From Nitrogeniibacter mangrovi (GTDB lineage Bacteria > Pseudomonadota > Gammaproteobacteria > Burkholderiales > Rhodocyclaceae), in contig NZ_CP048836.1 in NCBI RefSeq assembly GCF_010983895.1, forward strand, positions 372,001-436,000: a stretch of 64,000 nucleotides of DNA, written 5' to 3'. Below the pieces are notes generated by a model that made no database searches, had not been told where the DNA came from, and worked only from the letters and a program-made list of their open reading frames with translations. Shown here in pieces: positions 24,081 to 42,895 of this stretch. Within the stretch, counting starts at the first letter, position 1. Every line of letters starts with the position of its first letter. The position numbers were made by a program, and so were the translations under genes.

Positions 24081-25406
24081 GTGCAGCAGACAACGGACGG
24101 CTTCGATTGCGACGTGCTGGTCATCGGTGGCGGGCCGGCCGGCTCGACGGCGGCGGCCATGCTGGCCGGGCAGGGCCATGCCGTGGTGCTGCTGGAGAAG
24201 GCCCATCATCCGCGCTTCCACATCGGCGAATCGCTGCTGCCGGCCAACCTGCCGCTGTTCGAGCGCCTCGGCGTCGCCGACGAGATGCGCGCCATCGGCA
24301 TGGTCAAGCGTGGCGCCGAGTTCGTCTCTCCCTGGCATGAACACCGCCAGGTGTTCCAGTTCGCCGACGCCTGGGACAAGTCCATGCCCTTCGCCTATCA
24401 GGTCAAGCGCGCCGATTTCGACCATGTGCTCATCCGCAACGCGGCGCGGCGCGGCGCCGAGGTGATCGAAGGCTGCAAGGTGCACGCGGTGGATTTCCTG
24501 CCCGATGGCGGCGGCGCCGAGATCCGCGCCGCCCACGACGATGGCCGCGAGCAGCAGTGGCGGGCGCGCTTCGTGGTCGACGCCTCCGGCCGGGACACCT
24601 TCATCGCCAACAAGCTCAAGGCCAAGCACCGCAACCCGGACCACAACAGCTCGGCCATCTATGCCCATTTCGCCGGCGCCAGACGCCACGACGGCGACGC
24701 CGAGGGCAACATCACCATCTTCTGGTTCGAGCACGGCTGGTTCTGGTTCATTCCCCTGCGCGACGGTGTCACCAGCGTGGGTGCCACGGTGTGGCCGTAC
24801 TACCTCAAGCAGCGCCGGGGCACGATGGCCGAGTTCTTCATGGAGACCATCGCCCTGTGCCCGGCGCTCGCCGAGCGCCTCGCCGGCGCCGAGCGGGTGA
24901 CCGAGGTGGAGGCCACCGGCAACTTCTCCTACGTGACCGACCACACCCATGGCGACAACTACGTGCTGCTCGGCGACGCCTTCGCCTTCATCGACCCGGT
25001 ATTCTCCTCCGGGGTGATGCTCGCCATGCAAAGCGCCATGATCGGCGCCGAGGCCATCGACACCAGCCTGCGCCAGCCGGCCAGACGCGCCCAGGCGCTG
25101 GCCCGTTTCGACAAGCTGATGCGCCACGGGCCGAAGGAATTCGCCTGGTTCATCTACCGCATCACCTCGCCCACCATGCGCGAGCTGTTCATGGGGCCGC
25201 GCAACCTGCTGCGCATGCAGGAGGCGCTGCTGTCGCTGCTCGCCGGCGACATCTTCGGCAAGACCCCGATCTGGCCGTCGCTGTACGCCTTCAAGGTGCT
25301 CTACTACACCATCTGCCTGTTCAGGCTGCCGCGCACGATCGCCGCCTGGCGCCGGCGGCGCATCAACATCCGGCCGGTGGACGGACTGGGCCTCGAGGAT
25401 CGATGA
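24081..25406 (+). CDS. FAD-dependent halogenase-like oxidoreductase
   Basis: A 441-residue flavoprotein of the tryptophan-halogenase/p-hydroxybenzoate hydroxylase superfamily. Residues 11-16 give GGGPAG for FAD binding; LLGDAFAFIDPVFSSG is the second FAD motif. The flavin-halogenase signature W-x-W-x-I-P is present (WFWFIP, about residue 230). A KRGAEF segment near residue 75 resembles that of phenol-type halogenases. It could halogenate the aryl head of the pigment, as in brominated xanthomonadins, or merely hydroxylate it. Translation starts at GTG 24081 after AAGGAGTAAGG. It heads a coupled five-gene unit. Confidence 0.85.
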   Translation: MQQTTDGFDCDVLVIGGGPAGSTAAAMLAGQGHAVVLLEKAHHPRFHIGESLLPANLPLFERLGVADEMRAIGMVKRGAEFVSPWHEHRQVFQFADAWDKSMPFAYQVKRADFDHVLIRNAARRGAEVIEGCKVHAVDFLPDGGGAEIRAAHDDGREQQWRARFVVDASGRDTFIANKLKAKHRNPDHNSSAIYAHFAGARRHDGDAEGNITIFWFEHGWFWFIPLRDGVTSVGATVWPYYLKQRRGTMAEFFMETIALCPALAERLAGAERVTEVEATGNFSYVTDHTHGDNYVLLGDAFAFIDPVFSSGVMLAMQSAMIGAEAIDTSLRQPARRAQALARFDKLMRHGPKEFAWFIYRITSPTMRELFMGPRNLLRMQEALLSLLAGDIFGKTPIWPSLYAFKVLYYTICLFRLPRTIAAWRRRRINIRPVDGLGLEDR

Positions 25407-26398
25407 CGGCGCGCGTGATCCACTGGCTCGGCGCGCATGACGCGCTGCCGCCCGGGCGCAACCTGCTCGGCGGCGTGGCCTACGGTGGCGGCGATGCGTG
25501 GGGCGGGCCCGGGCCGGTGCTGCCGGTGGATGTGCCGGTTCTCGACGGGGAGGCCGCCGCGGCCAGCCTGTGGCTCACCGATGCGCCGGTGCGCACCGGT
25601 GACTACGGCCCGGTCCGTTTCGCGCGCACCGACGAGCTGATCTTCGGCGTCCTGCGCATCGACGAGGCGAACATGGGCGATACGCTCGAGGCGGCGACGC
25701 GCGACGCCTACACCGCGCTGTTCCAGACCCTCGACGCCTGTGGCTATCCGACCCTGATGCGGGCCTGGAACTACCTGCCGCACATCAACCGCGAGGACGG
25801 TGGCGTGGAGCGCTACCGCCGCTTCAACGCCGGCCGCCAGGCCGCGTTCAGCGCCAGCCGGCGCCCGCTCGCCGGCAAGGTGCCGGCCGCCTGCGCGCTC
25901 GGTACCGGCGGAGGCGAGCTGTCGATCGCCTTCCTGGGCAGCGTCAATCCCTTCGTGCCGGTGGAAAATCCGCGTCAGGTCAGCGCCTATCACTATCCGC
26001 CCGAATACGGCGAGCGCAGCCCCACCTTCTCGCGTGCCGGGCTGGCCCGCATCGGCGGGCGCGATGCCCTGCTGGTGTCGGGCACGGCCGCCATCGTCGG
26101 CCATCGCTCGTTGCACTCGGGCGATGTCATGGCCCAGGCCGACGAGACCCTGGCGAACCTCGCGGCGGTGGTCGAGGCCGCCAACGCCTATCCCGGCGCG
26201 CGCCGTCACGCCATGGACGCGCTCGACTACACCGTCTATGTCCGCCATGCGGCAGATGCCCCCGCCGTTCTGGCGCGGCTGCGTGCCGCGGTCGGGGCCG
26301 GCGCGCGCGTGGTGTGCGTGCAGGCCGATGTGTGCCGGGCGGAACTGCTGGTCGAGATCGAGGCCATGGGCGGGCTGGACGCCAAGGAGACGCCATGA
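25403..26398 (+). CDS. Chorismatase-like 3-hydroxybenzoate synthase (XanB2-type)
   Basis: A 331-residue enzyme related to pteridine-dependent-dioxygenase-named chorismatases such as XanB2 and Hyg5. The motif WNYLPHIN then RYRRFNAGR and the later SGTAAIVGHRSLHSGD with ETLANL are typical of that family. XanB2-type enzymes split chorismate to 3- or 4-hydroxybenzoate, which would supply the aryl starter of a xanthomonadin-like polyene. It is translationally coupled to the halogenase-like gene (4-base overlap) and to the next gene. Regiochemistry cannot be read from sequence. Confidence 0.87.
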   Translation: MTARVIHWLGAHDALPPGRNLLGGVAYGGGDAWGGPGPVLPVDVPVLDGEAAAASLWLTDAPVRTGDYGPVRFARTDELIFGVLRIDEANMGDTLEAATRDAYTALFQTLDACGYPTLMRAWNYLPHINREDGGVERYRRFNAGRQAAFSASRRPLAGKVPAACALGTGGGELSIAFLGSVNPFVPVENPRQVSAYHYPPEYGERSPTFSRAGLARIGGRDALLVSGTAAIVGHRSLHSGDVMAQADETLANLAAVVEAANAYPGARRHAMDALDYTVYVRHAADAPAVLARLRAAVGAGARVVCVQADVCRAELLVEIEAMGGLDAKETP

Positions 26399-27228
26399 TG
26401 CGGAACGCACATCTGCTCGGCGCCCTGATGGTGCTGGTGACGGGCACGGCCGCGGTGGCCGCCGAGAAGCCCCTGTGGGAGCTGGGTCTGGGCGTCGGCG
26501 CGGTGAGTTTTCCGGACTACCGCGGCAGCGACCGCCAGCGCCTGCATCCGGTGCCGATCCCCTACGTGATCTATCGGGGCGACTTTCTCAAGGCCGACCG
26601 CAAGGGGGTGCGCGGGGTGTTCTTCGACACCGACCGCGTGGAGCTGAACGTGTCCCTGGCCGCCTCGGTGCCGGTGAACAGCGACGGCAACGACGCCCGC
26701 CGCGGCATGGCCGACCTCAAGCCCACGGTCGAGATCGGCCCCTCGCTCGACATCGCCCTGTGGCGCAGCGACGACCGCCGCGCCCAGCTCGACCTGCGCC
26801 TGCCGCTGCGCTGGGCCACGATCGTGAGCGGATCGCCGCGCGACGTCGGCCTCGTGTTCAGCCCGCGCATCAACCTCGACGTGCGCGATCCGCTCGGCTA
26901 CGCCGGCTGGAACCTCGGCCTGCTGACCGGCCCGATCTATGCCGACGCGCGCAACAACGCCTATTTCTACGACGTGACGCCAGCCGATGCGACCGCCACC
27001 CGGCCCGCCTACGCGGCCGGTGGCGGCTATGGTGGCACCCAGTTCCTCGCCGCCCTGTCCAGGCGCTACCCGCGCTACTGGATGGGCGCCTTCGTGCGCT
27101 ACGACACCCTGCGCGGCGCGGTGTTCGAGGACAGCCCGCTGGTGCGTCGAGACTCGGCCTGGGCGGCTGGCTTCGGCATCGCCTGGATGCTCGGCGAGTC
27201 GAGTCGCCGGGTCGAGGCCGAGGACTGA
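26395..27228 (+). CDS. MipA/OmpV-family outer-membrane protein
   Basis: A 277-residue protein with a signal peptide (residues 1-22) and a beta-barrel pattern of alternating aromatic and charged residues. It begins ELGLGVGAVSFPDYRGSD, the usual MipA/OmpV start, and ends with strand motifs (FGIAWMLG). It should sit in the outer membrane as a 12-strand barrel. Its place within the pigment unit suggests a role in positioning or transport of the polyene lipid, which is inference. AAGGAG precedes the ATG at 26395, which overlaps the previous stop. Confidence 0.88.
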   Translation: MMRNAHLLGALMVLVTGTAAVAAEKPLWELGLGVGAVSFPDYRGSDRQRLHPVPIPYVIYRGDFLKADRKGVRGVFFDTDRVELNVSLAASVPVNSDGNDARRGMADLKPTVEIGPSLDIALWRSDDRRAQLDLRLPLRWATIVSGSPRDVGLVFSPRINLDVRDPLGYAGWNLGLLTGPIYADARNNAYFYDVTPADATATRPAYAAGGGYGGTQFLAALSRRYPRYWMGAFVRYDTLRGAVFEDSPLVRRDSAWAAGFGIAWMLGESSRRVEAED

Positions 27229-27240: not shown

Positions 27241-28017
27241 ATGAGTCACACGGTGCTCCCCCTGCTCGTCGGCCTGCGCGAACGGCTGCGCTTCCACGCC
27301 GGGCTGGGCATGCTCGGCGTGCTCGGGCTGGGCTGGTTTCCGCTCGCGAGCCTGCTGCATCTGGTCCTGCCCGCGCGCCTGGGGCGGCCATTGGGGCGGC
27401 GGGCGATCCGCTTCGGCTTCGATGTTTACCTGCGCTGGCTCAGTCTGATCCGGGCCTGCCGCTTCGAGCTCGACGCCCTCGACGCGCTGCGTGACGGCGG
27501 CCCGCTGATCCTGGTGGCCAACCACCCCTGTCTGATCGACGCGCCGCTGATCCTCTCGCGCCTGCCGGACGTGGCCTGCGTGATGAAGACCGCGCTGATG
27601 CGCAACCCGCTGTTCGGCGGCGCGGCGCGCCTGGCCCGCTATGTGCGCAACGAGCCGTCGGTGGGCATGGTGCTCACGGCGGTGGAGAACCTGCGCGCCG
27701 GCAGCCACCTGCTGCTGTTTCCGGAAGCCACCCGCACCGTCGCCAAACCGCTCAACCGCTTCACGCCAAGTACCGCGCTCATCGCCCAGCGCGCGCAGGT
27801 GCCGGTGCAGACCCTGATCATCGAGACCGATTCGGCCTTCCTGTGCAAGGGCTGGCCGGTGTTCCGCCAGCCGCGCATGCCGATCCGCTACCGGGTGCGC
27901 CTCGGCGAACGCTTCGACCCGCCCGGCGACGTGGCCGAATTCACCGCCCGCCTCGAGGCCTACTTCACCCGCGCGCTGGCCGAATCCGCCATGGCGCCCC
28001 CCGTGCCCTGTCCATGA
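27241..28017 (+). CDS. PlsC-type acyltransferase
   Basis: A 258-residue membrane-associated lysophospholipid acyltransferase-like enzyme. The catalytic HX4D motif is NHPCLID and the acyl-binding FPEATRT motif follows about 65 residues later. One or two N-terminal hydrophobic segments suggest a membrane anchor. In aryl-polyene clusters such enzymes attach the polyene acyl chain to a glycerol or sugar carrier. It begins 12 bases after the MipA-like gene and overlaps the glycosyltransferase start by 4 bases. Confidence 0.9.
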   Translation: MSHTVLPLLVGLRERLRFHAGLGMLGVLGLGWFPLASLLHLVLPARLGRPLGRRAIRFGFDVYLRWLSLIRACRFELDALDALRDGGPLILVANHPCLIDAPLILSRLPDVACVMKTALMRNPLFGGAARLARYVRNEPSVGMVLTAVENLRAGSHLLLFPEATRTVAKPLNRFTPSTALIAQRAQVPVQTLIIETDSAFLCKGWPVFRQPRMPIRYRVRLGERFDPPGDVAEFTARLEAYFTRALAESAMAPPVPCP

Positions 28018-28772
28018 TGCCGCCGTCCACCACCCATCTCGTCGTCATCCCGAGCTACAACCCCGGCCGCGTGGTGTTCGACACCGTGCGCGCCGCGCGG
28101 GCGCACTGGGCGCCGGTGTGGGTGGTCGTGGACGGCAGCACCGATGGCACCGGCGAACAGCTCGAGGCCCTGGCGGCGGCGGACGATGGCCTGCGGGTGC
28201 TGCGCCTGGCACGCAACAGCGGCAAGGGCGCGGCGGTGCTCCATGCGCTCGATGCGGCTGCGGCCGAGGGCTTCACCCATGTGCTCACCATGGATTCGGA
28301 CGGCCAGCACCCGGCCCATCTCATCGGCGAATTCATGGCCGCCTCGCAGGCCCGGCCGGAGGCCATGATCCTCGGCAAACCGGTGTTCGACGCCAGCGCG
28401 CCGCTGCTGCGGGTGCGGGGACGCAAGGTGTCGAACGCCTGGGCCGACCTGGAGACCCTGTGGGCCGGGATCGGCGATTCGCTGTACGGCTTCCGCGTCT
28501 ATCCGGTCGCGCCGCTGCGCGCGATCATGCACGGGCAACGCTGGATGCGTCGCTTCGATTTCGACCCCGAGGCGGTGGTGCGCCTGGCCTGGCGCGGCGT
28601 CAGGCCGCTCAACCTGACGGCGCCGGTCAAGTACCTGAGCGCGGCCGAGGGCGGGGTGTCGCACTTCAACTACTGGCGCGACAACAAGCTGCTCACCTGG
28701 ATGCACACCCGGCTGTTCCTGGGTTTCCTCTTGCGCCTGCCGGTGCTGGCGTGGCGGCGCCTGCGCGGCTAA
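28014..28772 (+). CDS. Family 2 glycosyltransferase
   Basis: A 252-residue GT-A fold transferase of the dolichol-phosphate mannosyltransferase type. The nucleotide-binding start (VIPSYNP), the VVVDGSTDGT loop and the DXD-like MDSDGQHP are visible. No transmembrane tail beyond a hydrophobic patch near the C-terminus is seen. Together with the neighbouring acyltransferase it probably makes the glycolipid head of the pigment. Its last bases overlap the end of the convergent PAP2 gene (4 bases). Confidence 0.88.
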   Translation: MMPPSTTHLVVIPSYNPGRVVFDTVRAARAHWAPVWVVVDGSTDGTGEQLEALAAADDGLRVLRLARNSGKGAAVLHALDAAAAEGFTHVLTMDSDGQHPAHLIGEFMAASQARPEAMILGKPVFDASAPLLRVRGRKVSNAWADLETLWAGIGDSLYGFRVYPVAPLRAIMHGQRWMRRFDFDPEAVVRLAWRGVRPLNLTAPVKYLSAAEGGVSHFNYWRDNKLLTWMHTRLFLGFLLRLPVLAWRRLRG

Positions 28773-29455
28773 CGGCTCAGGCGCCCGTACCAGGCCAGCG
28801 ACCCCCAGGCACCCAGCCCCCCCAGGACGAGGCCGCCGAGCATGTCGATGGCCACGTGCTGCTTGATCGCCAGGGTCGAATACACGATGGCCACGCCCCA
28901 TAGCAGATTGGCCAGGCGCAGCGCGCGCGGCGCGCCCACTTCCGCCAGCAGCCGATGCAGCCACAGGCCGGAGAACAGCGCGGTGGCCACATGCATCGAC
29001 GGGCAGGCGTTGCCGGTCGCGTCGATGCCCTGCAGCAGGGCCATCTCCGGCGTGTTCGCCAGATCCACCAGATGGGGCGGGACCGCCGTGGGCCAGAGCA
29101 CGAAACTGCCCAGACCGAGCACGCACACCGCGCCGATGGCGATGCCGTAGCCCACCAGCGCGCGGCGCGTCTCGATGAAGGCCGGCGGCAGCGACACATA
29201 CAGCCACAGGGACAGGTAGGCGGGCAGCCACACGGTGGAGAAGGGCACGGCGCGGTCCAGCGCGGTCAGCGGCATCACGGTGGGCGGGACGCGCGGATTC
29301 TCCAGCAGCCAGAAGTAGGCGACGAAGAAGGCGGTGATGTAGACCGTGGTGCCCACGGCCTTGAGCGGGGCATGGCGGCGGGTGCGCGCGAACAGGCGCC
29401 CGAACCAGCCCGGGGCGGGCAGCGCGGCGGTGGCGACGGTGCCGGCCGGTCTCAA
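28769..29455 (-). CDS. PAP2-superfamily membrane phosphatase
   Basis: About 228 residues and about six membrane helices. The phosphatase motifs are CPSMHVATAL and KQHVAIDMLGG (catalytic His residues), as in the inositol-phosphotransferase/PAP2_3 type; the first motif is poorly defined. It may dephosphorylate a lipid-phosphate carrier of the pigment pathway. No ATG is available; the TTG at 29455 lies across the ketoreductase stop and would be used by translational coupling. It is the last gene of the minus-strand pigment unit. Confidence 0.8.
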   Translation of the reverse strand: MRPAGTVATAALPAPGWFGRLFARTRRHAPLKAVGTTVYITAFFVAYFWLLENPRVPPTVMPLTALDRAVPFSTVWLPAYLSLWLYVSLPPAFIETRRALVGYGIAIGAVCVLGLGSFVLWPTAVPPHLVDLANTPEMALLQGIDATGNACPSMHVATALFSGLWLHRLLAEVGAPRALRLANLLWGVAIVYSTLAIKQHVAIDMLGGLVLGGLGAWGSLAWYGRLSR

Positions 29456-30174
29456 ATCATCCCGCCATTGACGGAGATGATCTGCCCGGTGATGTAGGCG
29501 GCCTGGTCGGAGGCCAGGAAGCCCACCAGGTCGGCCACTTCCTCGGGCCGGCCGGCACGCTTCATGGGCACCAGGCGGGCGAGGGTCTCGGGTGGGAAGC
29601 TGCCCGCACTCATGTCGGTCTCGATCACGCCCGGCGCCACCGCATTGACGGTGATGCCGCGGCTGGCCAGCTCCAGCGACAGGGTCCGGGTGGCCGAATG
29701 CAGGGCGCCCTTGGCGGCAGCGTAATTGGTCTGCCCCCGATTGCCGGCGATGGCCGCCACCGAGGTGATGGTGATGATGCGCCCCCAGCGGGTGCGGATC
29801 ATCGGCATCGTCAGCGGCTGGGTGACATGGAAGAAACCGTTGAGGTTCACGTCGATCACCCGCGTCCATTGGGCGTCGGACATGCCGGGGAAGACCGCGT
29901 CGTCATGGATGCCGGCGTTGTTCACCAGGATCTGCACCGGGCCGCCCTCGAGCAGGCTGTCGATCGCCGTGGCAGTGGCTGCTGCATCGGTGACGTCGAA
30001 GCAGACCACCTCGGCCGAGCCGCCTTCGGCCCGCAGCGCCTCGGCCAGGGTATCGGCGGCCTCGCGATGGCGGTTGGCATGGATGAGGACATGGCAGCCG
30101 TCGGCGGCGAGGCGGCGGCAGATGGCGGCTCCGATGCCGCCGCTGCCGCCGGTGACCAGGGCGCGCCGGCTCAT
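29452..30174 (-). CDS. 3-ketoacyl-ACP reductase (FabG-like, aryl-polyene KR)
   Basis: A 240-residue short-chain dehydrogenase. The NADPH motif TGGSGGIG, the NNAGI motif, the catalytic Ser (TSVAAIAG) and the YAAAK Tyr-Lys pair are intact. In an aryl-polyene pathway it reduces the beta-keto group after each extension, like ApeQ. It overlaps the dehydratase gene upstream by 4 bases. Confidence 0.93.
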   Translation of the reverse strand: MSRRALVTGGSGGIGAAICRRLAADGCHVLIHANRHREAADTLAEALRAEGGSAEVVCFDVTDAAATATAIDSLLEGGPVQILVNNAGIHDDAVFPGMSDAQWTRVIDVNLNGFFHVTQPLTMPMIRTRWGRIITITSVAAIAGNRGQTNYAAAKGALHSATRTLSLELASRGITVNAVAPGVIETDMSAGSFPPETLARLVPMKRAGRPEEVADLVGFLASDQAAYITGQIISVNGGMI

Positions 30175-30638
30175 GCCGCGTCTCCGGCTGCGCCCGGCAG
30201 CCGGGGGGCGACGATCACCGCGGCGCGGCCGCGCAGCAGCACCTGGCCGTCGGCGGAGACCTCGAAGCGGTAGAGGATGGTGGACTCGTTGCCCGACAGG
30301 CGCTCGGCCTCCACGCACAGCGGCGCGTCGATGGTGTCGAGCCGGTCCACGAGCAGCTCGACCCCGCGCACGCTGGCGAGGAAGCCCACGCGGGGGCGCT
30401 CGGTCGGCGGCTGCAGGATGGCGCCGTGCACGGCCATGGCCTGGGCGGCGTACTCGACGCCCACCGCGGCGCCGAGGCGCTCGCCGTTGCGCAGCGGATG
30501 GGCCGGATCGCGATGACTGCTGGCGCGACAGCGAATGCGCGCCTCGTCGCAGGCCTCCACCGTGTCGAGCAGGCACATGCTGCCGGTGTGGGGAATCCGG
30601 GTGGCGATCCAGTCGCGGTCGTGGATCGGCGCGCTCAC
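30171..30638 (-). CDS. Hotdog-fold dehydratase (ApeP-like)
   Basis: A 155-residue hotdog protein. It begins with IPHTGSMCLLD, then has GVEYAAQAMAVHG with the helix that usually holds a catalytic acid. Such 150-residue proteins act with a smaller partner as beta-hydroxyacyl-ACP dehydratase in aryl-polyene clusters. The GTG start at 30638 overlaps the previous stop. The partner (small hotdog) is the gene at 38660-38965. Confidence 0.85.
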   Translation of the reverse strand: MSAPIHDRDWIATRIPHTGSMCLLDTVEACDEARIRCRASSHRDPAHPLRNGERLGAAVGVEYAAQAMAVHGAILQPPTERPRVGFLASVRGVELLVDRLDTIDAPLCVEAERLSGNESTILYRFEVSADGQVLLRGRAAVIVAPRLPGAAGDAA

Positions 30639-31450
30639 GCGGCGGCCTCGATGTCGATGCCCAGGTGGCTGCCCGCCAAGTGTTCGAGCACGCAGCGCTG
30701 GCGGTGGCCGCCGTTGAGGATGCGGGCCACGCCGGCGAGCAGGGGCAGGGCGCGGCCGGTGGGAATGCCGGTGCGCAGATGCTCGAGCCGGGCGTCGGCC
30801 AGCGTGCTTGGCGTGGTGTCCTCGATCTGCATCGTCAGCCGGGCGATGTCGTTCCAGCCCGGCATGCGCGCCAGCACCAGGCCCACGCCCATGGCGTCGA
30901 CAATCGGGCGTGCTTCGCTGAGGGGGTGGGGATAGGGCGCGTCGTAGCTCACCAGCAGGATCTGCTCCAGCCCCTCGGCCTGCAGCTGCACCACCGCCTC
31001 GAGCAGGCCGGCGGCGAAGCTGCCGTCGTAGGCCGACACGATGGTGGACGGGGCCTGGGCACCGGTGGCGATGCCCCAGTAGCCGGAGGCGGCGTTGTTG
31101 ACCGAGTTGTGGAAGCGGGTCGGCGAGATCAGCCGGTCGTCCGAGGCCAGGGTCTCGCAGATGGCGTGGCAGTTGTCGCCATCGCCGCCCGAGGAGGCGA
31201 ACACCGAGCTCAGCGTCGCCGGATCGACCGTGGCCGCGGCGCAGGTCTGCAGGCCGGTGGCGATGGCGAGCTTGACCACCTTGCCGACCCGGCGCCGTTC
31301 CGCGGGTGGCAAGGCGCTCAGCGCCGGGATGACCGTGGGGGTCGCCTCCGGCGCCGTGCGCGTGCTCAGACGGGCGAGCAGCGCGGGCCAGTCGTCGAAG
31401 CCCGGGCCGATGGCGCCGACGGCGCGCAGGCTGGCGTGCAGGGTGCTCAT
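30635..31450 (-). CDS. Ketosynthase chain-length factor-like protein
   Basis: A 271-residue protein with the beta-ketoacyl synthase fold, shorter than a full ketosynthase. Where the catalytic Cys should be there is SVNNAASGYW, with no Cys, so it is not a catalytic ketosynthase. Such proteins form a heterodimer with a true ketosynthase in type II systems and set the chain length. Its ATG overlaps the stop of the true ketosynthase upstream (31447-32652), which is probably its partner. Confidence 0.87.
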   Translation of the reverse strand: MSTLHASLRAVGAIGPGFDDWPALLARLSTRTAPEATPTVIPALSALPPAERRRVGKVVKLAIATGLQTCAAATVDPATLSSVFASSGGDGDNCHAICETLASDDRLISPTRFHNSVNNAASGYWGIATGAQAPSTIVSAYDGSFAAGLLEAVVQLQAEGLEQILLVSYDAPYPHPLSEARPIVDAMGVGLVLARMPGWNDIARLTMQIEDTTPSTLADARLEHLRTGIPTGRALPLLAGVARILNGGHRQRCVLEHLAGSHLGIDIEAAA

Positions 31451-34218: not shown

Positions 34219-34832
34219 GGCCGCAGCCCCGTGGCGAGCAGGCGGTCCCACAGCTGTCGCCAGGTGGGCCAGTCATGGCCGCCGTCGACGGTGGCGACCC
34301 GGTCCGGCGGCAGCACCTCGGCCATGAGCGCATGGCCGGGGGCGAAGCGGTCCTGGCGACCGTAGCCGAGCCACACCGGCGGTGGCTGCCGGCGCGCCAG
34401 GGTCTGCAGCGCCCGCCAGCCGCGCAGCTCGCCCTCGTCCGGCGCGAGGCCGCCGGCGTCCCAGTGGCGCAGGCCGCCGGCCGCGGTGATGGCGCCGGTG
34501 ATCATCCGGTTGCCCGGGTAGGGGGCCAGCAGCACGAGGCCGTCCACGCCGTCCGGGTAGGTGTCCGCGTAGGTCAGCGCGGTGAGTGCGCCGATGGAGA
34601 TGCCGCCGAGCAGCAGGCGACGCACTCCGGCGCGCCGGGCCGGGGCGATCACGGCCTCATGCAGGGTGTGCACCAGGGCGCCGCTGGCCACCGCGTTCAG
34701 ATCGGTCGGGTGGGTGTGCAGGTCCACCCCCGCGGCGCGGGCGGCGGCGTCGAAGCCATGGGTGAGGAAATCGGCGGGGGTGTCGTAGGCGCCGGGCAGC
34801 AGCACGACCCGGGTGTCGGCGGGGAGGCTCAT
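34215..34832 (-). CDS. Alpha/beta-hydrolase fold protein
   Basis: A 205-residue hydrolase. The nucleophile elbow is GGISIG (a G-x-S-x-G), the acid is in GRQDRFA and the His is in DGGHDWPTW, so the catalytic triad is complete. Likely an esterase or thioesterase acting on the polyene product. It has no signal peptide. It overlaps the MMPL exporter gene stop and the deacetylase start by 4 bases each. Confidence 0.82.
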   Translation of the reverse strand: MSLPADTRVVLLPGAYDTPADFLTHGFDAAARAAGVDLHTHPTDLNAVASGALVHTLHEAVIAPARRAGVRRLLLGGISIGALTALTYADTYPDGVDGLVLLAPYPGNRMITGAITAAGGLRHWDAGGLAPDEGELRGWRALQTLARRQPPPVWLGYGRQDRFAPGHALMAEVLPPDRVATVDGGHDWPTWRQLWDRLLATGLRP

Positions 34833-37162
34833 GTGCGGCGCGGCCCCGTGGCCGGATGCATCAGCGCCGAGAACACCAGCGCCAGCAGCGCCCCCGGGCC
34901 GACCACGATGCCGATGGCGTGGAGCACCGGCACCGAGGACAGGGCGAGGATGCCGAAGCCGGCCAGGGTGGTGAGGTTGGCGACCACGAGGGAGGCCAGG
35001 GTGCGCAGCGAGGGGCCGTCGGTGCCGTGTTCGCCGGCATCGAAGAACAGGGCGTAGTTGGAGCCGACCGCCACCACCAGCAGCATGCCCACCAGGTGCA
35101 GCAGGGTGAGGCGCTCGCCGGCGAGACTGAGGGCGCCGATGACCACCAGCACCGTGGCCAGCAGCGGCAGGGCGAGGCGCAGCAGGCGCGCGGGGCTGCG
35201 CAGGGCGATGGCGAGCAGGATCAGGATGGCGAGCACGCCCCCGCCGGCGGCCGTGCGTGCCTCGTGCAGGTAGCCGGCGTAGAGCCGCTCCGACTCGGAC
35301 TTGATGTCCACGAAGACCGCGTCGGGCACGCCGCTGGCCTCCAGTGCGGCGCGCACCGCCCGTGGATCGATGGGGTGGGCGTCGTCGACGGCACGCACCG
35401 GCATCAGGGCCCGCCAGGTGCTGTCGTGGTGGATCAGCATGGCGTCCACCGCCAGGGCCAGTGCGGTGCCGTCGAGGCTGGCGCGGGTGAGCGCTGGCGC
35501 GTGGCGCGCAGCCGCGACATCGTCGATGAAGGGCCCCAGCTTGTCGGCCCGCAGGGGCAGGTCGGCGGTAGCGGCCGCCAGCCGGGTGCGCAAGGTGTCG
35601 GCATCGGGCAGCGCGGCGATGCGTGCCGCCTGGGTGGCCCGACTGGGCAGGAAGCGCGCCGGGCTGTCGAAGCCGCCGATGCGCCCGTCGGCGGCGAGGC
35701 GGTCGAGCACCTTGCCGAGCCCCTCGGCGCGGGCCAGCGCGGTGTCGGCGTCATGCGCCGAGGCGACGACGAGGAAGCGCACGTCGGGAGCGGGCAGATC
35801 CTGGCGCAGGCGGGCGTCGAGTTGCTGGTCGGCTTCGGGGACCGGGCTGAGGGCGCCGAGCTCGTGGTGCCAGAGGTGGTCGCGATGGACATACAGCGTC
35901 GCCGCCGCCAGCGCACCGGCGACCAGGGGCAGCAGGCCCACCCGGCGGCTCCGGCCCATCAGCCAGCGCAGGCCGCGTCCCAGCACGCTCACGTCACGGA
36001 TGGCAAAGCGCGCGGGGGTGAGGGCGGGTAGCACATAGCGGGTGGTCAGCACGGCCGTGACCAGGCCGGTCATGGAGAACAGGCCGACCTGGGCGAGGCC
36101 CGGGAAGCCGGTGACCAGCAGGGCGCCGAAACCGAAGACCGAGGTCAGCACGCCGAGGCGGATGGTGCGCCAGAAGCGTCCGGCATCGGCGCCGTCGCGC
36201 TGGATGAAGTAGTAGATGGCGTAGTCCACCGCCTCGCCGAGCAGAGGCAGGCCGAAGCCCAGGGTGATGCCATGGACCTGGCCGAAGCCCAGGCTCACCG
36301 CGCAGATGCCGGCCAGCGCGCCGGTGGCCACCGGCGCCAGCCCGAGCAGCAGCGCGGTGGGCGAGCGGTAGATGAGCAGCAGCAGGATGAGGATGAGGGC
36401 CGCGCCGGTGCTCGACAGGCGCGCCACCTCGTCCTTGATCGTGGCCCGGGCATTGACCGCGAACACCCCGGGTCCGGACACCAGCAGGCGCAGGTTTTCG
36501 TGCCCGGCGCCGGTGGTGAGCCGGGCGAAGGTGGCGCGCAGGGTGGCGATGGCGGCGGCCTGCCCGTCGGTGTCGGCGCCCGAGGCCGCGGTGGTCGCCA
36601 GCAGCAGGGTGCGGGCGCCGTCGCGCGAGGTCCACAGGCCCGCCTGCGTCGGCGCGTCGCGGTAGCGGCTGAAATGCTCGATCACCTGGAGTGTCTCGGC
36701 CGTCGGGTCGCGGGCGATGATGGGCTTGAGCAGCAGGCCGGCGGAGGAGGCGAGCAGGTCGATGCTCTCGGCGATGGCCGCATGCAGTCCGGCGACGCTG
36801 AAGCGCTCGGGGGTGACCGCCGGGCTGAGCCGGTAGCGGTGATCGAACAGCCAGCGCTGATCCTTGTCGGTGCCGATGGATTCGCCGTTGCTCACCGCGA
36901 CGAAGGCGGGCGAGGCGCGCAGGGCGCCGGCCAGCGCCTGGGAGGCCTGCTTGCGCGCGCCGGCGTCACCGCCCTCGATGCCGATCAGGAGCATGCGCGA
37001 GGCGACGCCGTCGCGCAGCAGGTCCACCAGCAGCGCCTGCGCTTCGGTGGGGGCGCTGGGCAGGAAGGCGGACAGGTCGGCGGTGAAGCGGGTGCGCGAG
37101 ACGCCCACGGCGCACACCAGCAGCACCAGCAGCCAGACGATGAGCGGGGTGCGCCGCTTCAT
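34829..37162 (-). CDS. MMPL/RND-family exporter
   Basis: A 777-residue inner-membrane transporter with about 12 membrane helices in two halves, each preceded by a large periplasmic loop. It starts with a hydrophobic helix and RTRFTADLSAFLP, typical of aryl-polyene and hopanoid exporters. It probably lifts the pigment precursor from the inner membrane toward the LolA-like carrier encoded next (37159-37743). Its ATG overlaps the LolA-like stop. Confidence 0.92.
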   Translation of the reverse strand: MKRRTPLIVWLLVLLVCAVGVSRTRFTADLSAFLPSAPTEAQALLVDLLRDGVASRMLLIGIEGGDAGARKQASQALAGALRASPAFVAVSNGESIGTDKDQRWLFDHRYRLSPAVTPERFSVAGLHAAIAESIDLLASSAGLLLKPIIARDPTAETLQVIEHFSRYRDAPTQAGLWTSRDGARTLLLATTAASGADTDGQAAAIATLRATFARLTTGAGHENLRLLVSGPGVFAVNARATIKDEVARLSSTGAALILILLLLIYRSPTALLLGLAPVATGALAGICAVSLGFGQVHGITLGFGLPLLGEAVDYAIYYFIQRDGADAGRFWRTIRLGVLTSVFGFGALLVTGFPGLAQVGLFSMTGLVTAVLTTRYVLPALTPARFAIRDVSVLGRGLRWLMGRSRRVGLLPLVAGALAAATLYVHRDHLWHHELGALSPVPEADQQLDARLRQDLPAPDVRFLVVASAHDADTALARAEGLGKVLDRLAADGRIGGFDSPARFLPSRATQAARIAALPDADTLRTRLAAATADLPLRADKLGPFIDDVAAARHAPALTRASLDGTALALAVDAMLIHHDSTWRALMPVRAVDDAHPIDPRAVRAALEASGVPDAVFVDIKSESERLYAGYLHEARTAAGGGVLAILILLAIALRSPARLLRLALPLLATVLVVIGALSLAGERLTLLHLVGMLLVVAVGSNYALFFDAGEHGTDGPSLRTLASLVVANLTTLAGFGILALSSVPVLHAIGIVVGPGALLALVFSALMHPATGPRRT

Positions 37163-37743
37163 GAGCCCGCCGCCGGGATCGGGGTGATGCGCATCTCGGA
37201 GCGGTCACCGTCGGCCTGCAGCACGCTCACGGTGTCGATCTGGCCGCCATGGCCCTCGATGCGGATGCGCACGACCAGGGCGGCGATCCGGGTGTCCGAG
37301 GGGGACAGGTCGAGGGTCCAGGCATGTTGCGAGCCGCTCAGGGTGAGCAGGTAGTTCCGCTCCAGGGCCGCGCGGTCGCCCGCCAGGGTGCTGCGGATGC
37401 TCTCGATCAGGGCGGCGGCGTCCGGGTAGTCGCGCAGGTCCATGTGCAGGCTGCCCGAGGGGCGGGTGAGGGTGAGCGCGTTGCCGTCGAGCACCATGGA
37501 TTCGGGCCGCGGCGTGAGCGCATGGCGTTCCAGGTGGTCGGGACGGCGATACACCAGGGTGCCGGTGGACTCGACCGGGGTATCGAGAATGGCCAGGTAT
37601 TTGCGCTCGGTGAAGTGCACCGTGCCGCCGGCATTCTGCGCCAAGGTGTGCATGAGGCGATCGACCGTCCAGCCGGTGGCGGCAGCAGCGGCGGTGGCGA
37701 TCTGGAACAGCAGCGGAATCAGGATGAGGCGGCGGACGCTCAT
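37159..37743 (-). CDS. LolA-like periplasmic lipid carrier
   Basis: A 194-residue periplasmic protein with a signal peptide (residues 1-22) and the LolA-type beta-clam pattern: VHFTERKYLAILDTPVES, GTLVYRRPDHLER, and MVLDGNALTL. LolA relatives in aryl-polyene clusters carry the pigment lipid across the periplasm. It sits between the MMPL exporter and an LpxL-type acyltransferase, overlapping both by 4 bases. Confidence 0.85.
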   Translation of the reverse strand: MSVRRLILIPLLFQIATAAAAATGWTVDRLMHTLAQNAGGTVHFTERKYLAILDTPVESTGTLVYRRPDHLERHALTPRPESMVLDGNALTLTRPSGSLHMDLRDYPDAAALIESIRSTLAGDRAALERNYLLTLSGSQHAWTLDLSPSDTRIAALVVRIRIEGHGGQIDTVSVLQADGDRSEMRITPIPAAGS

Positions 37744-38663
37744 TGCGGGCGGGCGGACCAGAAGTCGAAGAAATTGAACCAGTTCAGCGGGGCTTCGCGG
37801 CAGCAGCGTTCGAGCTCGGCGGCATAGCGCGCCATGGCCGCATCGATGGCCGCCTCGCGCTGTGCCGGCGCGCACTCGCCGAAGTCGGCGATGGGCACGA
37901 AGCGGATCCGGTAGCGGTTACCGCCCAGGTACAGCCCGGCCATGAAGATGACCGGCTGGCGCAGCATGGCGGCCATGCGGAAGGGGCCGACAGGCAGGGC
38001 CGCGGGGTCGCCGAGCAGCGGCAGCCGGCGGGTCGGCTCGTCGCCCAGGCTGCGATCGGCGAGCAGGCCGACCAGGGCGCCCGCTTCGAGCGCATCGCGC
38101 ACCTGCAGCATGGTGTCCACCCGCCCCAGGGGGATGATCTCGGGCCGTGCGGCGGGATTGATGGCTTCGAGGGTGGCGTTGATCTTGCGCGCGTTCTCTT
38201 CGTACATGGTCAGCGCGATGCGCTGGTCGGGCAGCTGGCGGCCGAGCGCCCGGGTGAGCTCGAAGCTGCCCAGGTGGGCGCCGAACAGCAGCGCGCCGTG
38301 GCCGGCGTCATAGCGCTGGCGCATCATCGCCTCGCCTTCGATCTCGATGCGGAACAGGTCGAAGCGGTCGTTGAGCAGGTAGATGCGATCGAGGATGGTG
38401 GCGGCGAAACTGAACAGGTGACGGCCGACGTCGCGCCAGCCCGCGGGGCGGCCGAGTGCGCGCGTCAGGTAGGCGCGCGAGGCGCGCCGGGCGGTGGCGC
38501 CGAAGCACAGGAAATAGCCGGTGATCGGCCACAGGACGAGACGGGCGACGCGCCGGCCCAGATGCAGCGCGATCCAGCGCATCAGCGCGAGGGCGAAGCG
38601 GTTGCTGCGCTCGGGCTGGTGGCGCCACGAGGCGCCCTGCGCCGGATCGGTGCGTGCGCTCAC
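37740..38663 (-). CDS. LpxL/HtrB-type acyltransferase
   Basis: A 307-residue inner-membrane acyltransferase. The N-terminal helix is followed by the HtrB-type catalytic motif H-x4-D/E, here HLGSFE, and the conserved YEENARK and ADRSLG segments. It should transfer an acyl chain, perhaps the polyene, to a lipid A-like or glycolipid acceptor. The GTG start at 38663 overlaps the small dehydratase stop by 4 bases; the longer open frame antisense-extends into the ligase gene and was rejected. Confidence 0.9.
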   Translation of the reverse strand: MSARTDPAQGASWRHQPERSNRFALALMRWIALHLGRRVARLVLWPITGYFLCFGATARRASRAYLTRALGRPAGWRDVGRHLFSFAATILDRIYLLNDRFDLFRIEIEGEAMMRQRYDAGHGALLFGAHLGSFELTRALGRQLPDQRIALTMYEENARKINATLEAINPAARPEIIPLGRVDTMLQVRDALEAGALVGLLADRSLGDEPTRRLPLLGDPAALPVGPFRMAAMLRQPVIFMAGLYLGGNRYRIRFVPIADFGECAPAQREAAIDAAMARYAAELERCCREAPLNWFNFFDFWSARPQ

Positions 38664-38965
38664 GTGGTGGCGGCCTGTGGCTGCAGGGTGCCGGCGGCGA
38701 TGAGCTGGGCCTCGTGCTCGATGCGGAACTCGAGGCCGTTGGCCGCCGGGGTGAGGAGGATGCTCAGGGACATGTCCGGTGCGGCCGGATGCACGAACTT
38801 GGCGGAGCGCACCAGCCAGGCGGTATCCGGCTGCCATGCGCTGGCCTGGCGGATCACCTCGTCGAGCAGCAGCGCACCGGGCACGATGGGGTGGCCGGGG
38901 AAGTGGCCGGCGAACACCGGATGGTCGGCGGTCAGGGCGAACTCGGTGTGTCGGGGTGGGCTCAT
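38660..38965 (-). CDS. Small hotdog dehydratase (ApeI-like)
   Basis: A 101-residue FabZ-like hotdog protein. The signature FAGHFPGHPIVPG holds the catalytic His. It is the small partner of the ApeP-like dehydratase encoded at 30171-30638 in this same unit. Start and stop each overlap neighbours by 4 bases. Confidence 0.9.
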   Translation of the reverse strand: MSPPRHTEFALTADHPVFAGHFPGHPIVPGALLLDEVIRQASAWQPDTAWLVRSAKFVHPAAPDMSLSILLTPAANGLEFRIEHEAQLIAAGTLQPQAATT

Positions 38966-40323
38966 GGGGTGTCGGACTCCTCGGGGCCGGGGGTCTCGGC
39001 CAGCAGCCGGGCGCGTACGTCGCGGGGCAGCTTGCCGGTGGCGTTGCGCGGCAGCCGGTCGAGCAGGACCAGCGGCCGGGGCAGGAACAGCGGGTCGATG
39101 CGGGTGCGCAGTGCGGCGACGATCTGCGCCGCGGTGAGACCCGGGGCGACGACGAAGGCGGCCAGCCGGGTGATCTCCCGGCCGGATTCGTCCGGCAGAT
39201 GGAAGGCACCGTCCTCGACGCCGTCGATGGCCTGCAGCTGGCGGTCGAGGTAGGCCAGCGAGCTGCGCTTGCCGGCGATGTTGATCAGGTCGGCGTTGCG
39301 GCCGACGAGGCGGAAGCGGCCGGGGCCGGTGAGCTCGATGCGGTCGCCCAGCGGGACCGGCTGTTCGATGTGCCCGCCCAGCGCCCAGGTGGCCGCGTCC
39401 CGGTCCTCCAGGCGGATGTCCGGGAACAGCTGCCAGGGCTCGCCGGCGGCCGTGCGGCGGGTGGCGATCTGGCCGGTTTCGGTGCTGCCGTAGATTTCCA
39501 GCAAGGGGCCGCCGAAGGCCGCTTCGGCCGCGCCGGCGAGATCCTCGTCCAGCGGGGCGGTGGCGCTGAGCAGCAGATCCGCCGGGGGCATCGCCTCGTC
39601 GGCACGCAGCACGGTGCGCAGGTGATGGGGCGTGGTCACGAGCAGGCGCGGCCGGGGCAGGGCCGCGAGCTGGGCGGCGATCTCGCTCGGGAAGAAGGCA
39701 CGATCGGCGCCGAACGCGCCGCCGCCCTGGAGCGCGAGCAGGATGGTCGACTCGAACCCGTACATGTGCTGCGGCGGGACCGTGCCGAGCAGGCTGAAGG
39801 CCCCTTGGGCGCGTTCGGCCAGGCCCAGCTGACGGGCGGCGGCGCGGGTGTTGGCGACCAGCTTGCCCCAGGTCTTCAGGTGCGGGACCGGGGTGCCGGT
39901 CGAACCGGAGGTGAACACCCAGGCGATGGCCTGCTCGGGCGGGAGCGCCGGCACCGGGGGGGCGTCGTGCGTGTCGATGCCGGCCAGATCCGGAAAGGGG
40001 CTGTGCGGCAGGGCGGCGGCGAGGGCATCGTTTCCCTCACTGACCACGAAGGCATCCGGTGCGAACGCCGCCATGTGACGGACGGCCTCCGGGGTGTAGG
40101 TGGACGGCATCAGGTTGATCCGTCCCGTCATCATGCCGGCGGCGAGGGTGAGCGCGAAGTGGTAGCGGTCGCTGCAGGCATTGAGGATGTGGGTGCCGGC
40201 GGGGAAGCCCTCGGCCACCGCCCGTGCATGGGCAAGGAAACGGCGGCGGGTGACGGGCGCGCCGCCGCGCCAGGCGATGACGCTGTCGTCGTGCGGGTGG
40301 GTCAGCAGAGGCAGGCGATCCAT
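38962..40323 (-). CDS. Aryl-acid:ACP ligase-type AMP-binding enzyme
   Basis: A 453-residue adenylate-forming enzyme. The P-loop FTSGSTGTPVPHLKTW is near residue 140, YGSTETG near 275 and the C-terminal lysine in RNATGKLPRD near 437. In this cluster it should activate the hydroxybenzoate starter and load it on the ACP, like ApeH. It is preceded by a 15-base gap from the membrane protein gene. Confidence 0.9.
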   Translation of the reverse strand: MDRLPLLTHPHDDSVIAWRGGAPVTRRRFLAHARAVAEGFPAGTHILNACSDRYHFALTLAAGMMTGRINLMPSTYTPEAVRHMAAFAPDAFVVSEGNDALAAALPHSPFPDLAGIDTHDAPPVPALPPEQAIAWVFTSGSTGTPVPHLKTWGKLVANTRAAARQLGLAERAQGAFSLLGTVPPQHMYGFESTILLALQGGGAFGADRAFFPSEIAAQLAALPRPRLLVTTPHHLRTVLRADEAMPPADLLLSATAPLDEDLAGAAEAAFGGPLLEIYGSTETGQIATRRTAAGEPWQLFPDIRLEDRDAATWALGGHIEQPVPLGDRIELTGPGRFRLVGRNADLINIAGKRSSLAYLDRQLQAIDGVEDGAFHLPDESGREITRLAAFVVAPGLTAAQIVAALRTRIDPLFLPRPLVLLDRLPRNATGKLPRDVRARLLAETPGPEESDTP

Positions 40324-40338: not shown

Positions 40339-41037
40339 TCAGGGCTGACGGGGCGAGCCGGACGAGGTCGCGCGCAGGTGTTCGCGGTGCGCACTCCAGC
40401 GTTCGAAGGCCGGCCACGCGGAACGGATCGAGTCGACCAGGCCCGTCTGCAGTGCCGCGGGCAGCACACGCCGGCGCACCAGATACTCGATCAGGAACAC
40501 CGCTGGAATGAGGATCGGCGTCAGCACGTTGGCGAACAGCGACCAGGAGGCGACGTGGCCGCTGAAGAAGAGCACCAGCGACGCCGCCGCCATGAGGCAG
40601 AAGACGGCGGTCCACGCCACGGTGACGCGGCGCGTGTAGCGCGCCAGCGGCGGCGCCAGGGGGCCGTGGACGGTTTGCGCGAACAGCGACACCATCGGCG
40701 TGCGACCCGCACCCAGGGTCCGCCCGAACAGGCCCGCCAGCGAGGCGAAGGTGCCGGCATGCTGGATCAGCTCGATGTAGGCGAAGCGGGCCGCGAGCAC
40801 GTGCCGGAAACCGATGAGCAGGGCCAGTCCGGTCAGCCACAGCGCGAGTGCGACCCGTCGGTGCCGGCTCGTCCAGGCGAGCCACAGCGTGGTCAGCGCC
40901 ATGGGCAGCAGCGCCAGCGCCGCCCCGGTCTGGCTCGGGGTGCCCGCGGCGGTGAAGTGATGGAGCAGACCGATGTAGAGCGCGATCAGCAGCCCGGCGA
41001 CCACGGTCAGCAGCAGGTGCCTTGCGCGCGCGGTCAT
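40339..41037 (-). CDS. Polytopic membrane protein of aryl-polyene clusters (COG4648-like)
   Basis: A 232-residue protein with about six membrane helices and no catalytic motif that I recognise. Proteins like this are frequent between the first ACP and the AMP ligase in aryl-polyene loci. Its role is not established. Start ATG 41037 overlaps the ACP stop by 4 bases; the longer frame runs through the ACP gene and was rejected. Confidence 0.82.
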   Translation of the reverse strand: MTARARHLLLTVVAGLLIALYIGLLHHFTAAGTPSQTGAALALLPMALTTLWLAWTSRHRRVALALWLTGLALLIGFRHVLAARFAYIELIQHAGTFASLAGLFGRTLGAGRTPMVSLFAQTVHGPLAPPLARYTRRVTVAWTAVFCLMAAASLVLFFSGHVASWSLFANVLTPILIPAVFLIEYLVRRRVLPAALQTGLVDSIRSAWPAFERWSAHREHLRATSSGSPRQP

Positions 41038-41321
41038 TTCGTCCGGTGGGTGGCCACGTAGTCGGTGAGGCTGCGCAGCGAGGCGAAGATCTTGACGTTG
41101 TCCTCGTTGTCGGCCCGCAGCGAAAAGCCGTAGCGTTTCGACAGCACCAGGGCCACTTCGAGGATGTCGATTGAGTCCAGGCCCAGGCCTTCGCCATAGA
41201 GCGGCGCCTCCGCCTCGATGTCGGCGGGTGCCATCTCCAGGTTGAGGGCGGCAACGATCTGTTCGGCCACTTCGAGGATCAGAGCGTCGTCGGCGGGGTG
41301 GTTTGCGGCGGTGTCGTTCAT
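41034..41321 (-). CDS. Acyl carrier protein (second ACP)
   Basis: A 95-residue acidic protein with the phosphopantetheine site GLDSIDILE (attachment Ser near residue 50). It should carry the growing polyene as a thioester. It has an N-terminal extension of about 12 residues relative to AcpP. A gap of 87 bases separates it from the upstream ketosynthase gene, and no terminator is seen there. Confidence 0.92.
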   Translation of the reverse strand: MNDTAANHPADDALILEVAEQIVAALNLEMAPADIEAEAPLYGEGLGLDSIDILEVALVLSKRYGFSLRADNEDNVKIFASLRSLTDYVATHRTK

Positions 41322-41408: not shown

Positions 41409-42653
41409 TCAGTCCTCCGCCCGACGGAAAGCCAGCACCGCATTGCTGCCACCAAAGGCGAAGGCGTTCGACAGGCAGGCGCGCAGCGGGCGTTCCAGGG
41501 CGCCGCCACGCACATGGAGCACGCCTTCGCAGGCCGGATCGACCGTCTCCAGGTGGGCGGTGGGCGGAATCCGCCCCTGGCGCAGGGCCTGCACGCAGAT
41601 GATGGCCTCGAGGGCGCCGGTCGCCCCCATCATGTGGCCGTGCATCGATTTGGTGGCGCTGACCGGCAGGGTGTTTGCCGCTGCGCCGAAGACCTGGCCG
41701 ATGGCGTCGATCTCGATGGGGTCGCCCTCGGGGGTGGCGGTGCCGTGGGCGTTGACGTAGTCGACGTCGGCGGGGGTCATGCCGCCGTCCGCGAGGGCCT
41801 GGCGCATGGCCTCGACCTGTCCGCGTGCCGAGGGCCGCACCAGGTGCTCGGCATCGCTGCTGCAGCCATAGCCGGTCAGTTCGGCCAGGATCGTGGCGCC
41901 GCGTGCGCGTGCATGATCCCAGTCCTCGAGAATCAGCGCCGCGCCGCCTTCGCCCAGGACCAGACCGGCGCGGTCGGAGGCGAAGGGGCGACAGGCTGCG
42001 GCGGCGCCATGGGGCTCGGCCGGGGCCAGCACCCGCAGCGCTTCCCAGGCGCGCACCACGCCCAGCGACATCGGGCTGTCGGAGCCGCCGGCAATGACCA
42101 CGTCGGAGCGGCCCTCGCGTACCCGCCGGAAGCCTTCGCCGATGGCGGTGGCCGCCGCCGCGCAGGCGATGGTGTAGGTCAGGCAGGCCCCGGCCATGCC
42201 GAACTCGATGGCGATGTGCGAGGCGGCGGTGTTGTTCATGCCCAGCAGCAGCGACAGGGGCGGGACGCGGCGGCGACCGTTCACGTACATCTCGCGATAG
42301 CCGCGCTCGAAGGTCAGCGTCCCTGCCAGCGCCGTGCCCCAATAGACCGCACCGCGTGGGTCCGGTCCTTCGGTGCGGGCCAGACCGGACTGCGCCCAGG
42401 CGCGCCGCGCCGCCACCAGGCCAAGCTGGCCGGAGCGGTCGAGGGTCGAGATGTGGGTGCCGAGCTCCGCCAGAGGGTCGAAGCCGCTCCAGTGCACCGC
42501 GGGGATGGAAATGGCCAGGTGGTCTTCGTCCCGCTCATGCAGTGCGACCGCCGATTCTCCGGCCAGCAGCCGGGTGAACAGCGCGTCGGCGTCGCTGCCC
42601 CAGGGGCCACCGACACCGATGCCGGTGATCGCGACTCGACGGGGCCGACTCAT
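41409..42653 (-). CDS. FabF-type beta-ketoacyl-ACP synthase
   Basis: A 414-residue ketosynthase. The nucleophile is in YTIACAAAATAIG (about residue 166), the His residues are in NAHGTATPEGD and SMHGHMMGATGA, and the end is SNAFAFGGSNAVL. It is one of two apparently catalytic ketosynthases in the pathway; this one may prime the aryl starter. It overlaps the first ACP gene by 4 bases. Confidence 0.94.
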   Translation of the reverse strand: MSRPRRVAITGIGVGGPWGSDADALFTRLLAGESAVALHERDEDHLAISIPAVHWSGFDPLAELGTHISTLDRSGQLGLVAARRAWAQSGLARTEGPDPRGAVYWGTALAGTLTFERGYREMYVNGRRRVPPLSLLLGMNNTAASHIAIEFGMAGACLTYTIACAAAATAIGEGFRRVREGRSDVVIAGGSDSPMSLGVVRAWEALRVLAPAEPHGAAAACRPFASDRAGLVLGEGGAALILEDWDHARARGATILAELTGYGCSSDAEHLVRPSARGQVEAMRQALADGGMTPADVDYVNAHGTATPEGDPIEIDAIGQVFGAAANTLPVSATKSMHGHMMGATGALEAIICVQALRQGRIPPTAHLETVDPACEGVLHVRGGALERPLRACLSNAFAFGGSNAVLAFRRAED

Positions 42654-42895
42654 GAGCCCGACGTCGGCTGCAGGCCCAGGCGATCGAGCTGGGTGACGAG
42701 ATCCTGGACCGTGGTCGGGTTGGGCAGGTCCTTGGGCAGGGTGATGCCGGTCTTCTCCTCGAAATCGAAGAGCAGTTCGAGCAGCATCAGCGAATCGATG
42801 CCGATGTCGGCCAGGGTGGCCTCGGGAACGACCGTCTCGGGCGCGATGTTGCCGTGGTTCTTGGCGAAATCACGAATCAGGTCCAGAGAGTTCAT
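42650..42895 (-). CDS. Acyl carrier protein (first ACP)
   Basis: An 81-residue ACP with the Ppant site GIDSLMLLE (attachment Ser about residue 37) and the usual acidic helices. It is the first gene of the minus-strand pigment unit, 80 bases downstream of a TATAAT box. The ATG at 42895 was preferred over the 16-residue longer frame because the shorter version matches a normal ACP length and start. Confidence 0.93.
   Translation of the reverse strand: MNSLDLIRDFAKNHGNIAPETVVPEATLADIGIDSLMLLELLFDFEEKTGITLPKDLPNPTTVQDLVTQLDRLGLQPTSGS

Follow-up and report, generated by a model that had tools for sequence, protein, structure and literature searches.

Does a gene cluster of Nitrogeniibacter mangrovi encode an unusual glycolipid form of an aryl-polyene pigment, or a pigment pathway of a known kind? 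The cluster lies in a stretch of 64,000 nucleotides (contig NZ_CP048836.1, positions 372,001 to 436,000), called here the window. An earlier note, made from the sequence alone, read it as a complete xanthomonadin-type locus with "less usual additions": a methyltransferase, a NodB-type deacetylase, a PAP2-family protein and an alpha/beta-hydrolase. Xanthomonadin-type pigments protect against light and peroxide. We find that the window almost certainly holds an intact xanthomonadin-type aryl-polyene locus of the "arc" subtype, named after the arc genes of Azoarcus sp. BH72. The locus is largely ordinary: most of the supposed extras recur in related bacteria. The locus type, the methyltransferase, the deacetylase and the position of the hydrolase (as a hypothetical protein) are already in print, and the published arc genes together with our survey of relatives remove most of the novelty. 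One distinctive hint is the likeness of the PAP2 protein to inositol phosphorylceramide (IPC) synthase and Aur1 without the KX6RP motif.

Layout of the locus

Frame composition and family searches delimit 22 genes from 24081 to 42895 (or 42943) of the window. They form two convergent runs whose tail ends overlap by 4 bases. Five genes on the forward strand encode a halogenase, a chorismatase, a MipA-family protein, a PlsC-type acyltransferase and a GT2 glycosyltransferase, while the 17 genes on the reverse strand begin with acyl carrier protein (ACP) 2 and end, furthest downstream, with the PAP2 gene. With the chosen start codons, the 21 junctions are mostly 4-base overlaps; the remaining gaps measure 8, 12, 15, 19 and 87 bases. 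The GC content of the cluster is 72.0%, against 68.4% and 68.8% in the flanks. Every gene listed in the earlier note is present; the halogenase, MipA, glycosyltransferase and ArcU-like genes had been omitted.

A genome of the same genus, G008, has all 22 genes in identical order and orientation at 53-83% identity, indicating that the arrangement in the window is not due to chance. Among nine same-genus genomes (G001-G009), G008 alone has a strong match to the chain-length factor (CLF), at 66%. Six others have weak matches (E 7.7e-13 to 1.6e-11), perhaps to aryl-polyene loci of another type, and the last two have none. The nearest named relatives of the CLF would place the genome of the window in the Rhodocyclales.

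Active sites and enzyme identities

Residue conservation was assessed in aligned homologs from the fetched loci, each covering more than 80% of the profile, at positions that are catalytic in these families. C166/H295/H329 of ketosynthase 1 (KS1) are kept in 147 of 147 homologs, and C164/H303/H340 of KS2 in 16 of 16. The CLF is a 271-aa Ketoacyl-synt_2 protein in which an Asp aligns with the ketosynthase Cys and the C-terminal part is missing. It adjoins the active-site-complete KS1, as in an ORF16-ORF17-type pair. The proposed set of two active-site-complete ketosynthases and a Cys-less CLF is therefore borne out by the alignments.

The remaining enzymes of the core are similarly conserved. 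The carrier serines are found in all homologs (Ser50 of ACP1, 97/97; Ser35 of ACP2, 11/11), as are Lys76, W220, W222 and I224 of the halogenase (49/49) and the SGTA motif and Glu318 of the chorismatase (57/57). P16 and H17 of the first dehydratase occur in 99% of 138 homologs, and H95, D100, E162 and R165 of the PlsC-type acyltransferase in 100% of 63. In the glycosyltransferase D94 is invariant and D96 is kept in 99% of 103 homologs; its best NCBIfam match is a weak one to PpgS (44 bits, cut-off 370), and a sequence search of solved structures gave no matches for it. Among solved structures, the halogenase is closest to flavin halogenases such as 3e1t, 8zop, CmlS and PltA. Because these residues are conserved and the halogenase has such relatives, the enzymes listed in the earlier note were correctly named, and its claim of a complete locus stands, with a full gene set and intact catalytic residues.

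The additional genes also appear to encode intact enzymes. D54, G56 and G58 of the methyltransferase are kept in 100% of 35 homologs, and D82, D83, H133, H137, R172, W196, D202, H228 and D229 of the deacetylase in 78 of 78. The only segment of the deacetylase above the hydrophobicity threshold is N-terminal (residues 11-29), so the protein is probably tied to the membrane. The hydrolase keeps S79/D161/H186 in 33 of 33 homologs. Its AlphaFold2 model (pLDDT 96.2) is nearest to serine esterases, lipases and thioesterases, and its sequence matches solved structures weakly (best E 0.003).

Table 1 Genes of the locus (window coordinates), with the evidence for each assignment.
Feature	Coordinates	Strand	Evidence
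ArcA-like flavin-dependent halogenase	24081..25406	+	Trp_halogenase/FAD domains; closest solved structures are halogenases
ArcB/XanB2-type chorismatase (hydroxybenzoate starter)	25403..26398	+	FkbO_Hyg5-like N domain, weak L-PSP match
MipA-family outer-membrane protein (ArcC-like)	26395..27228	+	PF06629 3.7e-44
PlsC-type acyltransferase (ArcD-like)	27241..28017	+	PF01553
GT2 glycosyltransferase (ArcE-like)	28014..28772	+	PF00535
PAP2-family membrane protein, start codon uncertain	28769..29443	-	PF01569/PF14378
FabG-type ketoreductase	29452..30174	-	NF004200 371.6 bits, above cut-off
Hot-dog dehydratase, weakly ApeP-like	30171..30638	-	PF22817 19 bits, cut-off 27
Partial CLF without active-site Cys (ArcJ/ORF16-like)	30635..31450	-	PF13723, alignments
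KS1 (ArcK-like), possible start 32652	31447..32694	-	NF006618 545 bits, above cut-off
SAM methyltransferase (ArcM-like)	32672..33412	-	PF13489
NodB-type deacetylase (ArcN-like), possible start 34218	33409..34251	-	PF01522 1.5e-27
Alpha/beta-hydrolase, ArcO position	34215..34832	-	Conserved Ser-Asp-His, AlphaFold2 fold
MMPL/RND-family exporter (ArcP-like)	34829..37162	-	PF03176
LolA-like periplasmic carrier (ArcQ-like)	37159..37743	-	PF19574 1.1e-19
LpxL-type acyltransferase (ArcR-like)	37740..38663	-	PF03279
FabZ-like dehydratase (ArcS-like)	38660..38965	-	PF07977
AMP-forming ligase (ArcT-like)	38962..40323	-	PF00501/PF13193
Membrane protein, ArcU position	40339..41037	-	Four hydrophobic segments, no Pfam match at E 0.01; syntenic in relatives
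ACP1 (ArcV-like)	41034..41321	-	PF00550
KS2	41409..42653	-	TIGR03150 367 bits, below cut-off 494
ACP2	42650..42895	-	PF00550

Distribution of the additional genes

A search of named genomes with the CLF alignment gave at least 592 pattern matches, at least 586 of them confirmed. Per-gene profiles were run on the best 80 of these loci, a selection biased to close relatives, in which 59 loci include 7 kb or more of sequence on each side of the CLF. The sets overlap: L104 and L134 are apparently one contig, as are L058 and G022. The deacetylase is present in 52 of the 59 well-flanked loci, followed by PAP2 (25), the methyltransferase (23), the hydrolase (20) and KS2 (6). It is found in 68 of all 80, and a tblastn count over loci longer than 20 kb gives 49 of 56. 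The labels on loci with the deacetylase include Azoarcus, Aromatoleum, Thiobacillus, Polaromonas and Paraburkholderia; a few metagenome-assembled genomes (MAGs) labelled Gammaproteobacteria or Methylophaga also have it. Ten genomes of the same order, fetched around the CLF match from 30 other genomes with any match, contain the deacetylase in 7, the methyltransferase and the hydrolase in 6 each, KS2 in 5 and PAP2 in 3.

The picture differs outside the order. Among 369 genomes drawn across the class, 68 (our own included) have a CLF match at E <= 1e-20; the other 67, all of the same class and outside the order, yield 69 regions, 29 of them short. Since only 40 regions extend 7 kb or more from the CLF in both directions, the counts over all 69 are lower bounds: at least 4 with the deacetylase, 3 with the methyltransferase, 4 with PAP2 and 3 with the hydrolase. 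The 40 fully flanked regions contain 1, 1, 4 and 3, respectively. Being common in near relatives and rare in other orders, the extra genes mark a locus subtype centred on betaproteobacteria. They are thus unusual when set against other orders (3-4 of 69 regions) or the description of the Lysobacter system, and not when set against nearer relatives (20-52 of 59 loci) or the published Azoarcus genes, among which arcM, arcN and arcO are listed and PAP2 is not.

Across the 59 loci, hydrolase and methyltransferase occur together in 17, are both absent in 33 and occur singly in 9 (Fisher p 2.7e-7, relatedness ignored). An exclusion between methyltransferase and PAP2 is weak, with both in 5 loci (p 0.015, again ignoring relatedness). 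Of the 80 named loci, 67 have a deacetylase upstream of KS1 and on its strand. The slot between the two genes is filled by the methyltransferase in 22 of them and by PAP2 in 18, never by both; the other 27 have no recognised gene there. The window has the methyltransferase in this slot and PAP2 as the most downstream gene of the operon, which shows that one does not strictly exclude the other.

The PAP2-family protein

The window protein keeps both PAP2 signatures, PSxH (found in 36 of 36 homologs) and HxxxD (35 of 36). The KX6RP motif, a mark of phosphatases, is absent from it and from all 36 homologs (37/37), while the only other PAP2 match in the genome has it. A His/His/Asp triad without KX6RP is the pattern of Aur1/IPC-synthase-like phosphotransferases. 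The closest PDB folds to the AlphaFold2 model (pLDDT 92.4) are IPC synthase (E 6.7e-4) and Aur1 (7.4e-4), followed by a sphingomyelin-synthase-related protein (1.7e-3) and, in fourth place, LpxE (1.6e-2). With TM-scores by query length of 0.46-0.57 and root-mean-square deviations (rmsd) of 5.6-12 Å, the fold match is only moderate; for IPC synthase and Aur1 the TM-scores are 0.57 and the rmsd 12.0 and 5.6 Å. A sequence search of solved structures returned two implausible weak matches (E ~0.05).

On its predicted model, the protein would resemble IPC synthase and Aur1 slightly more than lipid phosphatases, which suggests a head-group phosphotransferase. A credible alternative, although not one that we favour, is carrier recycling by an ordinary lipid or polyprenyl phosphatase. 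The PF01569 match and the place of LpxE among the folds agree with it, while the missing motif, which the second PAP2 protein of the genome retains, and the two best fold matches (E ~7e-4), moderate as they are, point away from it.

Proposed pathway and alternatives

The gene set is consistent with the following pathway. The ArcB-like chorismatase would produce hydroxybenzoate, which the AMP ligase would load onto an ACP. The ketosynthase/partial CLF pair, the ketoreductase and the two dehydratases would then build the aryl polyene by type II polyketide synthase chemistry, and the halogenase and methyltransferase could decorate it. Acyltransferases and the glycosyltransferase would join the polyene to a lipid, and the MMPL, LolA and MipA proteins would place the pigment in the outer membrane. 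Published homologs are the basis for the predicted roles in starter supply, loading and chain building; those in lipid attachment and transport correspond to proposals in print for related clusters.

Tentatively, the deacetylase might cut an N-acetyl group off a sugar-lipid intermediate, the small hydrolase might release or trim acyl (thio)esters, and the PAP2 protein might move a phosphate-bearing head group. More speculatively still, the pigment lipid of the arc subtype could be a distinct one. An amino-sugar lipid would come from glycosyltransferase and deacetylase, and the Aur1-like PAP2 protein would swap a phospho-head group onto it, yielding a (phospho)aminoglycolipid aryl polyene, with PAP2 and methyltransferase as alternative tailoring in the KS1-deacetylase slot. 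Xanthomonas pigments carry a sorbitol-phosphate ester, which we mention as background and do not use as evidence. A non-exhaustive literature search found no lipid-anchor structure for the carrier lipid of the arc subtype.

Several observations weigh against this scheme. The chorismatase scores 231.8 bits against TIGR04444, under the curated cut-off of 325, and both dehydratases match their families weakly or below curated cut-offs. The roles given to deacetylase, hydrolase and PAP2 are drawn from domains and folds. In the Azoarcus pigment, C41H52O4, a methylated aryl polyene is linked to a dialkylresorcinol; sugar, nitrogen and bromine are all absent, even though the published gene table includes arcA, arcE and arcM-O (PMC3949708). 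Halogenase, glycosyltransferase and deacetylase genes alone therefore do not predict a brominated aminoglycolipid, and the modified glycolipid proposed in the earlier note is possible and unproven. Other forms of the Azoarcus pigment may have been missed by acetone extraction.

It is also conceivable that the methyltransferase, deacetylase, hydrolase and PAP2 genes are passengers with no effect on the pigment. Their absence from many loci of other orders, and that of the deacetylase from 7 of the 59 near loci, implies that the core pathway does not need them. We consider the passenger explanation improbable, given that these genes are embedded in the operon (overlaps of 4 bases, or gaps of 8 and 19 bases), keep their catalytic residues, and include a deacetylase retained in most near loci and a hydrolase that travels with the methyltransferase. 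A dialkylresorcinol ester like arcuflavin, with KS2 and ACP2 serving that branch, looks very unlikely. DarB is FabH-like; PF08541 finds one FabH-type gene in the genome and PF08545 one strong and one marginal match (24.7 bits, cut-off 24). These two profiles, run with no known DarB as control and with no search for DarA, give no clear DarB candidate, and no dar-like genes are seen among the scanned neighbours. Azoarcus, which has, besides the same arc genes, a dar set with a ketosynthase and an ACP among its members (PMC3949708), is the precedent for such an ester. With a single clear FabH-type gene, a lipid anchor is the more plausible reading here.

Neighbouring genes

Directly upstream of the pigment operon lies a gene for a 1501-aa hybrid histidine kinase with HAMP, receiver, Hpt, GGDEF and EAL domains (43123-47628, reverse strand). 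An ABC-type substrate-binding protein and a TonB receptor come next, and the trio is syntenic in G008. We rejected the kinase as a member of the locus, as its G008 homolog is located ~5.5 kb from ACP2 and does not adjoin it. Azoarcus also has a kinase, arcW, at that position (PMC3949708). Elsewhere, the window encodes an 802-aa protein with three VanZ-like stretches (14328-16736, forward strand) and a 1295-aa FAD-oxidase/Fe-S/CCG fusion whose ends are DUF3683 and DUF3400 (54515-58402, reverse strand).

Comparison with known systems

The E. coli CFT073 aryl-polyene cluster presumably differs from the window in starter supply and gene order. Both contain aryl-polyene synthesis genes, acyltransferases, a glycosyltransferase, an RND-type exporter and Lol-like proteins, and the authors suggest a glycolipid as a possible anchor; the passages on the cluster name no NodB deacetylase, which the window has (PMC8253772). 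ORF1-17 of Lysobacter enzymogenes share with the window the KS/partial CLF pair, ketoreductase, two dehydratases, ACP, XanB2-type enzyme, exporter, LolA and acyltransferase, and mutants in the KS, CLF, ACP and ketoreductase are pigmentless (PMC3691225). Lysobacter lacks a halogenase, unlike the window, and the main text of its description has no mention of deacetylase, methyltransferase, PAP2, hydrolase or phosphatase (PMC3691225). The Xanthomonas pig cluster includes a halogenase as the window does; the X. axonopodis figure legend, by which alone it was compared, names no deacetylase, methyltransferase or PAP2.

The closest published counterpart is the arc system of Azoarcus sp. BH72, compared here by its published table and not by sequence. 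Table 1 of that paper lists arcA (halogenase), arcB (chorismatase), arcC (outer-membrane protein), arcD (acyltransferase), arcE (glycosyl transferase) and arcH-K. A second, unlinked locus contains arcM (methyltransferase), arcN (PS-deacetylase), arcO (hypothetical), arcP (exporter), arcQ (LolA), arcR (acyltransferase), arcS (dehydratase), arcT (ligase), arcU and arcV (ACP), and the arcK and arcT mutants are colourless (PMC3949708). The gene order in the window is that of arcA-E, arcH-K and arcM-V, with the ketoreductase, dehydratase, CLF-like protein and KS among the functions in common; the window hydrolase would by its position be arcO. An Azoarcus MAG (L111), covered in part, has the order U-T-S-R-Q-P-O-N-M-K-J-I-H, as in the window. 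In a related locus, L034 (G035), the CLF match has one in-frame TGA and the half from the methyltransferase to the ACP is missing from the 40 kb fetched, as if this locus were split like the Azoarcus arc genes. BH72 has arcF, arcG, arcL and the dar cluster, the first three of which are not seen within the window locus, while the window adds PAP2, KS2 and ACP2. Where BH72 divides its arc genes between two unlinked loci, the window unites them in one, and this compact single-site locus is a convenient test case for the functions of the deacetylase, hydrolase and PAP2 genes.

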